Shown: piece by piece, positions 3,829 to 28,990 of the stretch
Position numbering within the stretch: position 1 is the first letter of the stretch
Layout: every line of letters begins with the position of its first letter
DNA from: Melioribacteraceae bacterium
GTDB taxonomy: Bacteria; Bacteroidota; Ignavibacteria; Ignavibacteriales; Melioribacteraceae
Reading direction: 5' to 3'
Assembly: GCA_022181065.1 (NCBI GenBank)
Contig: BQMY01000094.1
Coordinates: forward strand, 1-56,916
DNA length: 56,916 bases
Program-made: the position numbers and the translations under genes
The notes under the pieces: model-generated
Seen by the model: the letters and a program-made list of their open reading frames with translations, nothing else
What the model was told of the DNA's origin: nothing
Database searches by the model: none

Positions 3829-4209
3829 CTGCTCCCGGACTCATATTTGAGCAATTCCCGGATAGATGCCCGCTTCTCCGAGCATGGCATATACTGCATG
3901 GTGTCATTTCCGCGGATCCGCCAAGGCGGAGGAAATCTAATCTTATAAAACTGGATTCATGTCGAAGCCGGGTATAACATAATACAAGGCTCCCGAGGTT
4001 CGCCTGTCCCGCAACGCGGGAAAGGGTCGGACAATTGAAGGCCCTTGCACACTGACGGGTCTTCGAGTGCCTCAGACAACTCTGATCATAGATCACTGAG
4101 TTTTCGCCGGTTCCACAATGAGGGAAAAGATATAAGAAAATTTCTGCATTTTCGTAACATTAACCCACGGTTTGAACCGTGGGGAACAGGACAGTGACAC
4201 AACACTTCC

Positions 4210-4256: not shown

Positions 4257-4489
4257 ATTTTCCATACATCCGGATTCCCCACGACTGAAGTCATGGGTTA
4301 ATGATTTGAAAACTCTACCTCACCTTTATTTACCGAGCCGGGTAGCACAAACCGGGTACAACGCAATTTCCCGGTTAGATGCCCGATCTGGTCGGGCATG
4401 ACAAAAAACACAATGTCATTCCTGCGAAAGCAGGAATCCAGAGATGCCGTCTTGTCGCAATGCTGCAAACCGAACCCACTCCTCTTGCA

Positions 4490-4734
4490 TAGTTATCAGT
4501 CACAAGTCGTAAGTCTGAAGTCAAAAACGAAAAACAAAAACTGGATACCCGCCTTCGCGGGTATGACAAAAATTGGATAATTGTCATTCCTGCGAAGACA
4601 GGATTCCAGAGATATCGTGTTTTCGCGATACCGAAATCATAACCCTTCAAATCATCCTCCGTCTTTCGACTATCGTCGAAATCCACCTCCTTCAAACGGA
4701 GGACTTTTACAACCAGCAACTTTTTCAACAGTCA
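4490..4734 (+). repeat. 245-bp direct repeat, copy 1
   Basis: The same 245 bases recur at 4935-5179 with about eight substitutions and no gaps, offset exactly 445. It holds ATACCCGC/GCGGGTAT (4545-4564), ATTCCTGC/ACAGGATT (4586-4605), TTCGAC/GTCGAA (4665-4680) and CCTCC/GGAGG (4686-4702) hairpins. The short overlapping frames it creates are not genes. Confidence 0.95.
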
Positions 4735-4934: not shown

Positions 4935-5179
4935 TAGTTATCAGTCACAAGTCGTAAGTCTGAAGTCAAAAACGAAAAACAAAGACTGGATACCCGCCTT
5001 CGCGGGTATGACAAAAATTGGATAATTGTCATTCCTGTGAAGACAGGAATCCAGAGATATCGTGTTTTCGCGATACTGAAATCATAACCCTTCAAATCAT
5101 CCTCCGTCTTTCGACTATCGTCGAAATCCACCTTCCTCAAAAGGAGGACTTTTACAACCAGCAACTTTTTCAACAGTCA
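4935..5179 (+). repeat. 245-bp direct repeat, copy 2
   Basis: Second copy of the unit at 4490-4734. Differences fall partly in hairpin stems. Here the ATTCCTGT (5031-5038) and ACAGGAAT (5043-5050) arms pair perfectly, whereas copy 1 pairs imperfectly. Confidence 0.95.
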
Positions 5180-20339: not shown

Positions 20340-21050
20340 GAATGTTGTAGAGTATAATAGGCAAGCAAAAGACTGGATACCCGTTCAATTCGGCGGGGCG
20401 AAGGGTATGACAAACCTGGGGAAGTGTCATTTCCACATTTACCCGCCACAGGTGGGCTTGATTGGAAATCTATTCTATTAAAACTGGATTCATTTCGAAG
20501 CCGGGCATAACAAAAGATAAGACTCCCGAGGTTCGCCTGTCCCGTAATGCGGGAAAGGATCGGACAATTGAAGTATCTTGCACTCTGATGGGTTTTCGAC
20601 AAGCTCAGACACCTCTGATCATAGATCACTCAGTTTTCGCCGGCTCCCCTCTTACAGGAAGGGATTGGAGAGTGAGTTAAGAAAATTTTCGCGCTTTCGT
20701 CACATTAACCCACCGGTTTGAATCTTGGGGAACAGAACGAATACACAACACTGCCGAACCGTTTTAACGGTTTCGGATATCATAAAACGGTTAAAACCGT
20801 TCTGATTAAAATACTTTCTTCTTGACCCACGACTGAAGTCATGGGTTAAGGAATTGAAAACTCTCCCTCACTTTTATATACCGAGTTGGGTAGTATAAAC
20901 CGGATACAATGAAATTTCCAGATAGATGCCCGCTTCTGCGAGCATGCATAAACAGTATGGTGTCATTTCCGCGGATCCGCCGTTGGCGGAGGAAATCTAA
21001 TCTATTAAAACTGGATACCACCTACGTGGGTATGACAAATAATTCTGATT
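20340..21050. repeat. Palindrome mosaic B (between convergent LolA-like and EamA genes)
   Basis: About 0.7 kb without a gene. In order: ATACCC...GGGTAT with an inserted TTCGGCGGGGCGAA unit (20377-20408); ATTTCCA...TGGAAAT with an inserted CCCGCC/GGTGGG hairpin (20429-20469); the long unit shared with mosaic A (about 20520-20643); CCCACCGG unit (20707-20728); twin AACCGTT palindromes (20757-20801); ACGACTGAAGTCATGGGTT unit (20829-20847); ATTTCC...GGAAAT with TCCGCC/GGCGGA (20965-20996); and ATACCAC/GTGGGTAT (21015-21033). The part 20520-20960 follows the same order as mosaic A at 3986-4390. Confidence 0.85.
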
Positions 21051-28313: not shown

Positions 28314-28990
28314 AAAAAGACACCGTGTGGCGCTGCCCCCTTTTTCGATAGAATGCGCAACAGGATCAAAAAAGTGACTGGGCGACCTTGTATTTGTCAT
28401 GCCCCTGGATTCGTCAAATGCTGAGGGAATCTTGTTTAACATGATAGATTTCCGGTCAAGCCGGAAATGACAAACGACTGAGACATTGTCATGCCCGACC
28501 TGATCGGGCATCCGGTTTTTGTTTTTTATCTTTCGACTACTAAAGGTGCCTGAGCTCAGTCGAAGGCCCGGTCATAGGAAACCTTTTCCCGAACGCCCGG
28601 TTCTTCCCCGGTTTGCAGCATTGCGACAATACAATATCTCTGGATTCCTTCCGCCGAAGGCGGATTCGCAGGAATGACATTGTGTTTTTTGTCATGCCCG
28701 ACCAGATCGGGCGTTTAACCGGGAAATTGCGTTGTACCCGGTTTGTGCTACCCGGCTCGGTATATAAAGGGGAGGGAGAGTTTTTAAATCATTAACCCAT
28801 GACTTCAGTCGTGGGGCAAGCAGAAAGTATTTTGACCAGAACGGTTTTAACCGTTTTATGATATGCAAAACCGTTAAAACGGTTCAGAGGTTTTGTGTAA
28901 CCATTCGGCACCGCACGGTTGAAACCGTGGGTTAATTGTACGGAAGTGCCGGAAACCCCGGGAAACATATACACCATATATTTAAAAATA
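28314..28990. repeat. Palindrome mosaic C (inverted, between convergent FAH and PorV-like genes)
   Basis: About 0.65 kb with no gene. Read on the minus strand it gives the same module order as mosaic A. Units on the plus strand: ATTTCCGG/CCGGAAAT with empty loop (28448-28468); GCCCGA/TCGGGC (28493-28509); ATTCCT...AGGAAT with an inserted TCCGCC/GGCGGA (28644-28675); GCCCGA/TCGGGC (28695-28711); AACCCATGACTTCAGTCGTGG (28794-28814); twin AACGGTT palindromes (28840-28885); and GCACGGTTGAAACCGTGGG (28914-28932). Confidence 0.85.

Follow-up and report, generated by a model that had tools for sequence, protein, structure and literature searches.

The window, by which we mean the whole 56,916-nucleotide stretch analysed (contig BQMY01000094.1 of a Melioribacteraceae bacterium, assembly GCA_022181065.1), carries REP hairpins whose tips are quantised in length. 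Some are empty, closing on a short tip, and others are filled with a further palindrome. The elements discussed below are the following, with positions counted from the first letter of the window.

28644..28675, plus strand: filled CGTC-type REP hairpin, arms ATTCCT/AGGAAT, with a CTGG tail before it and a GACA tag after it
28650..28664, plus strand: inner palindrome TCCGCC-GAA-GGCGGA, 15 nt, standing where GCT (3 nt) was, by alignment with 4418–4437
28665..28669, plus strand: kept half of the old tip, TTCGC, now unpaired; the empty tip GCTTTCGC has exactly these letters as its 3′ half
4418..4437, minus strand: empty counterpart of 28644–28675 within a shared longer repeat, assigned by flank homology
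5031..5050, minus strand: second empty REP of the 4418–4437 type, tip GTCTTCAC
3906..3936, minus strand: filled REP, arms ATTTCC/GGAAAT, inner palindrome at 3917–3930 with a 2-nt loop, retained half at 3912–3916
20965..20996, minus strand: filled REP, paralogue of 3906–3936, inner palindrome at 20976–20990, retained half at 20971–20975
20429..20469, minus strand: ATTTCC-type host arms with a third kind of tip, a 29-nt interior with a CCCACC..GGCGGG palindrome
20376..20411, plus strand: REP with arm ACCC, its tip a TTCGGCGGGGCGAA-type palindrome, 20-nt interior
28448..28468, plus strand: empty REP with a 5-nt loop, of the 9-nt interior class
28620..28760, plus strand: longer repeat carrying the filled REP, with an inverted copy at about 4330–4470

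The three inner palindromes, their three hosts and the empty hairpins at 28448–28468 and 4418–4437 all lie where the original prediction had placed them. The inner copies at 3917 and 20976 are not independent, since they lie within paralogous longer repeats, and one flank of the element at 20429–20469 matches that of 3906–3936 (88% over 110 positions). The DNA fold predicted for 28644–28675 (−9.6 kcal/mol) consists of an outer stem of 6 bp, an inner stem of 6 bp and a 5-nt bulge. The window also holds a direct repeat of 245 nt (4490–4734 and 4935–5179, 97% identical, 445 bp apart) in a REP-bearing stretch.

Both kinds of host in the window read GAT-arm-interior-arm′-ATGAC or, on the opposite strand, TGTC followed by a stem starting with AT and an ATC tail. 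The available part of Di Nocera et al. (2013; PMC3733652) describes CGTC-tagged REPs with an unpaired end motif CGTC, TGTC or CCTC, an 8–9 bp stem beginning with AT, a 4–5 nt loop (other loop lengths in three taxa) and a CCA tail; they occur mostly as head-to-head dimers and ‘apparently lack a dedicated transposase’. The window elements resemble these in tag and stem, and in part in loop and tail: the empties at 4418 and 28448 fold into an 8-bp stem starting with AT and a loop of 4–5 nt, the unpaired tail is CCAG in ATTCCT hosts and CTA in ATTTCC hosts against CCA in the model, and the window hosts carry TGTCAT at one end, except for the empty element at 28448, which has TTTGTCAT on the minus strand. 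Opposed REP pairs were seen within a tandem array on contig C86. In the filled window forms the outer stem is reduced to 6 bp and encloses an interior of 19–20 nt; filled tips (interiors of 20–29 nt) and empty/filled pairs, found here, are not described for CGTC-tagged REPs in the available part of that paper. Judged by these features, the ATTTCC and ATTCCT hosts, which had been taken for unrelated, both belong to the superfamily of CGTC-tagged REPs (GTCAT..ATC), as variants that differ in their arm letters.

For the filled element at 28644 and the empty one at 4418, homology extends over the right flank (95% over 120 positions) and the left (88% over 34). In the alignment the empty form reads TGGATTCCT-GCT-TTCGCAGGAATGACA and the filled form TGGATTCCT-TCCGCCGAAGGCGGA-TTCGCAGGAATGACA, an exchange of 3 nt for 15 with a net gain of 12 nt that leaves arms and flanks untouched. 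The flanks are thus intact, as had been proposed, but the proposed insertion at the tip is not a clean one, because three nucleotides are replaced. The idea that the NNN loop of the 15-mer represents the three displaced nucleotides was rejected: comparison by eye of the window pair gives GCT against GAA. That the hosts also exist empty holds exactly, and with long flanks, for the ATTCCT pair, but not for the pairing of 28448 with the ATTTCC host, since 28448 belongs to another tip class; a nearer empty counterpart of the ATTTCC host, TTTCC-GCTTTCGC-GGAAA, lies elsewhere in the genome.

Among 87 frame pairs whose flanks are homologous on either side, 79 had interiors of equal length and 8 had interiors that differed in length. 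Seven of these eight were filled against empty and one joined two empty classes; three of the seven, each involving a copy on contig C113, also differed by an arm letter. In the pair C93:42224/41883, whose flanks match at 97% over 120 and 91% over 121 positions, 9 nt are exchanged for 20 and the palindrome is of the TTCGCC type. The C113 copies provide further filled/empty paralogous pairs with flanks matching on both sides, and the tandem array on C86 has two filled and two empty units at one and the same place, the match on one side stopping at the end of the array. Since near-identical neighbours occur in both forms, hairpin tips seem to be sites of DNA rewriting. All of the pairs are paralogues; no orthologous filled/empty site at base level was seen in sets of 58 and 97 relatives, none of them from the same genus, and the window protein P0005 has 22 relatives at 63–72% identity.

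Discrete tip lengths are a feature of the whole genome (4.9 Mb scanned, in 164 contigs), where the loops fall into empty and filled states and empty hosts exist, as the original prediction required. Genome-wide there are 86 TGGATTCC..GGAATGAC elements, with lengths of 26 nt (70), 27 (3), 28 (1), 38 (5), 40 (1), 45 (5) and 50 (1). The 50-nt element holds a 26-nt element with one arm letter altered, whilst the five 38-nt elements contain the 15-mer (three), an imperfect 15-mer (one) or a 14-nt TTCGCC variant (one). A wider set of 144 REP frames was drawn from 108 merged blocks (326 kb) picked for such features, using a search that requires ATGAC and hence selects for the tag. Its interiors measure 8 nt (69), 9 (29), 10 (14) and 20 (22), and a further ten differ from all of these, a few being chance matches; the main arms are ACCC, ACCT, GCCC, GCCT, TCCC, TCCG, TCCT and TTCC. 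A sample of 400 kb at fixed positions yielded 14 REP frames, about 3 of them apparently chance matches by their letters, against 4 for a control tail.

The inner palindrome is itself strongly over-represented. The genome contains 84 copies of TCCGCCNNNGGCGGA (TCCGCC-NNN-GGCGGA) and none of the control pattern read backwards, against a chance expectation from base composition, for a 3-nt loop, of about 0.001 per window and about 0.06 per genome. A host stem of at least 5 bp surrounds the 15-mer in 75% of the 84 copies against 10.5% in the control, a figure that is not a count of events because the copies are related through duplication. In relatives, counted with L293, L306 and L308 left out as duplicates, the 15-mer often lies outside hairpins, and flanking stems of at least 5 bp were found at 24.7% of 73 copies against 12.8% in the control. 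Allowing loops of 2–3 nt, the 88 matches in the genome divide into class I (50, or 54 under a wider selection rule), class II (13), class III, the REPs (16), and others (9). The NNN loop of the class I 15-mer is hypervariable, with pairwise differences of.21,.70 and.49 at its three positions, against 0–.18 over 15 bases to the left of the 15-mer and 0–.31 over 24 to the right, where the first bases are partly set by the selection rule. Class II (CTTCCCTTT..GGGAAG adjoining the 15-mer) bears an insert of its own in 2 of 13 copies, as judged by eye. At L294, L327, L341 and L343, in other genera, adjoining pairs of 15-mers (TCCGCC..GGCGGATCCGCC..GGCGGA) appear to lie in frame inside genes, the frame having been read by eye.

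Filled tips are not confined to REPs. An unrelated repeat, ATCAC..GTGAT, occurs at 46 places and has a TCCGC-type insert in 44 (35–37 nt) and an empty form in 2 (25 nt). In its common form GTT is replaced by the 15-mer, again a gain of 12 nt, and the flanks are homologous on both sides for the one of the two empty copies that was aligned. The first hairpin of the same repeat, CCCCC..GGGGG, is present in 54 copies, of which 25 are empty, 22 filled and 7 unclassified, with an IS-like end present there in five of these seven. The 22 fills comprise 20 with a 26-nt loop type and 2 with a different palindrome at the identical place. We also noted, at L072, L074, L075, L136, L151, L162 and L172, all near contig ends, IS-like ends (..TTAAGTTGACRSCATTGC type) that abut hairpins and join CCCCCTT..AAGGGGG-type or similar hairpins at or near the tip.

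Filled and empty forms recur in a different genus of the same family. In the genome designated G016 the host is GATCCCG..CGGGATGAC, with arm variants GCTG and TCCG, and among the matches listed (41 of 117 places) 27 are empty (25 nt) and 14 filled (36–37 nt). Sixteen G016 loci, chosen around listed matches and partly for filled ones, gave 70 frames, of which 45 were empty (9 nt), 23 were filled (20–21 nt) and 2 were neither, so that 23 of 70 is no genome fraction and the P values are rough. In all 23 the fill follows the arm, CCCG or TCCG with the TCCGCC type (17, two imperfect) and GCTG with the TTCGCC type (6), a linkage with P about 1e-5 among copies that are related and non-independent. 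In G064, a genus-mate, the pattern matches at 29 places, never with the 15-mer, and 0 of 70 frames are filled at 14 loci. In one gap beside a homologous stretch (78% over 1604 positions), G016 has in tandem one filled frame, one empty frame and a further filled frame whose arm has an altered letter, and the G064 counterpart has 11 empty frames; the two are orthologous solely as a gap, not base by base. Other palindromes also serve as fills: those of CCTG..CAGG type occupy the GATCCCG..CGGGATGAC host in G048 (2 places) and G009 (1), and among the matches listed G037, G041 and G055 have one other fill apiece in TGGATTCC hosts. In G046, from another family, the 15-mer lies within what is by eye a class-II-like hairpin. 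The 3-for-15 exchange extends across three host types, the REPs of this genome, the ATCAC/GTGAT repeat and the REPs of another genus. One inner palindrome does lie in truly different hosts, as had been claimed: CGTC REPs, the ATCAC/GTGAT hairpin and the class-II-like hairpin recognised by eye. Overall, the observation behind the original prediction is confirmed and is wider than first noted, and its interpretation was partly right and partly wrong.

Small GIY-YIG genes were considered as the source of a mover and set aside, as relatives show a REP frame within 1.5 kb at 1 of 29 loci. In the genome itself a frame lies within 1.5 kb of 8 of the 13 small GIY-YIG copies, three of the eight being in the C86 array, and by eye the GIY-YIG counts per genome do not track those of one REP pattern. 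The array (C86:44900–46300, locus L129, genome G000) repeats in tandem a unit of about 419 bp that carries a small GIY-YIG gene and a pair of REPs. Three near-identical units at L242:1460–2390 in G035 also match GIY-YIG, and a stretch that resembles, by eye, the 3′ portion of a tRNA gene follows each of them.

The structure of the filled tips bears on the direction of change. Filled tips lack one half of the empty tip and retain the other half unpaired, which argues for a change from empty to filled. Of 17 retained halves, 14 correspond to a half that also occurs in empties, and the variety of the retained halves could partly reflect point mutation after one founding event. As both inner pairs are intact in 67 of the 69 empty 8-nt tips, and a single deletion would not restore tip pairing, the sequences make the direction from empty to filled the more likely one. 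We think it somewhat probable that breakage and repair at the tip swaps half a tip for another small hairpin, and that copying among repeats follows. The starting point would be an empty tip, a short paired stem with a 4–5 nt loop, on a CGTC-tagged REP. Once extruded, the hairpin may be cut at its tip, the candidate nuclease being an SbcCD-like enzyme acting 5′ of the loop, and the cut tip might then be repaired through joining to, or copying of, another small hairpin. The 3 nt beside one arm would be replaced, mostly by TCCGCC-NNN-GGCGGA or TTCGCC-NNN-GGCGAA, and the other half of the tip would stay as an unpaired bulge. SbcCD is reported to cut hairpins 5′ of the loop in the available part of PMC6265447; both strands can fold, so this rule accommodates a swap on whichever side of the tip and does not discriminate. 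A few founding replacements would have spread by duplication and by template switching between arm-matched repeats, with no transposase dedicated to the 15-mer, and the linkage of arm and fill type in G016 fits filled tips that, once formed, spread by copying within host subfamilies. The hypervariable NNN and the IS-like ends joined at or near tips suggest that hairpin tips may be hot spots of change. Tips are mostly stable, with equal interiors in 79 of the 87 flank-matched pairs, and this counts against the proposed course, as do the many 15-mer copies outside hairpin tips in relatives and the fact that all filled/empty pairs are paralogues.

The opposite course, starting from an ancestral filled form whose inner hairpin was deleted through replication slippage, seems improbable to us. 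Perfect hairpins are prone to deletion, and filled copies dominate the ATCAC/GTGAT repeat (44 of 46). However, the empties end in 3 nt that re-pair with the other half, an outcome that one deletion would not produce, no G064 frame is filled, and different inserts occupy one and the same site. Separate REP subfamilies with fixed tips, amplified without exchange and alike in their arms through shared structure only, would account for the arm-specific fill at the G016 loci, for the paralogy of the 3917 and 20976 copies and for the equal tip lengths of most flank-matched pairs. Against this, one longer repeat can occur with either a filled or an empty tip, the flanks of such copies reaching 97% identity, and both states also occur within tandem arrays; these paralogous pairs contradict fixed subfamilies unless the flanks were converted independently, and we regard this explanation as unlikely, if a little less so than loss.

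Single-strand transposition of the IS200/RAYT type, with the 15-mer as a minimal mobile element entering hairpin loops, draws on the recurrence of the 15-mer across several genera and several unrelated hosts, its 84 copies in this genome and the tandem 15-mers in relatives. It is hard to reconcile with the loss of three tip nucleotides, with the lack, by eye, of a constant tag beside the 15-mer across hosts, and with the perfect linkage of fill type and arm in G016, which fits copying within subfamilies better than free hopping. The RAYT proposed earlier as the mover is not supported either, as just two Y1_Tnp genes were found in the genome, neither with such a REP frame within 1.5 kb; with a TGTC rather than a GTAG tag, membership of the RAYT/REPIN system was rejected, and we judge transposition of this kind as improbable as loss. 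That the 15-mer and the TTCGCC variant form an independently mobile unit, captured repeatedly at unrelated hairpin tips by a fixed 3-for-15 exchange, is doubtful but deserves somewhat more credence; it would then rank among the smallest mobile DNAs known, with hairpin tips as its capture site. Selection for an RNA role in 3′ end protection or termination, with no special process at the DNA level, would suit the three filled window elements, which by the ORF list lie in apparently convergent gaps, given in the available part of PMC3733652 as a usual location of REPs. It leaves unexplained both the fixed gain of 12 nt and a 15-mer common to different hosts, and is very improbable.

Tip breakage and repair followed by copying remains the reading that we prefer. 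How REP hairpins change and spread is an open question, above all for CGTC-tagged ones, for which no transposase is known. Where empty and filled tips can be paired and the exchange between them is fixed, they offer a readable record of events at extruded chromosomal hairpins, and make hairpin-tip repair testable by simple reporters.

Nested palindromes and variable REP loops are already known. Reportedly, Elhai and colleagues described in 2008 very small dispersed repeats in Nostoc that are apparently mobile and in some cases nested; unlike the present ones, these are said not to be palindrome-tip replacements. Paired empty and filled REP tips were not found described in the open-licence literature searched, as far as its accessible text goes, including the available parts of PMC3733652, PMC2670323, PMC12306157, PMC1525189, PMC2884548 and PMC6265447. 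In the available part of PMC3733652 some species have REPs inside other palindromes, two of them without unlinked target palindromes. The E. coli type (GTAG-3) REPs treated there have coexisting tip types on similar arms, as here, and long loops that form a self-complementary second palindrome, as in our filled tips; they differ in their GTAG tag, and an inner palindrome common to unrelated hosts is not described in that part of the paper. Short palindromes inserted within other palindromes are also reported from Volvox organelle DNA, with the mechanism left open, in a text whose available part describes no fixed 3-for-15 exchange (PMC2670323); that case differs, too, in concerning organelles. 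A further likeness is to IS1397, IS621 and ISPpu9, which, according to the available part of PMC1525189, use REP palindromes as insertion targets, but which are full IS elements with transposases.
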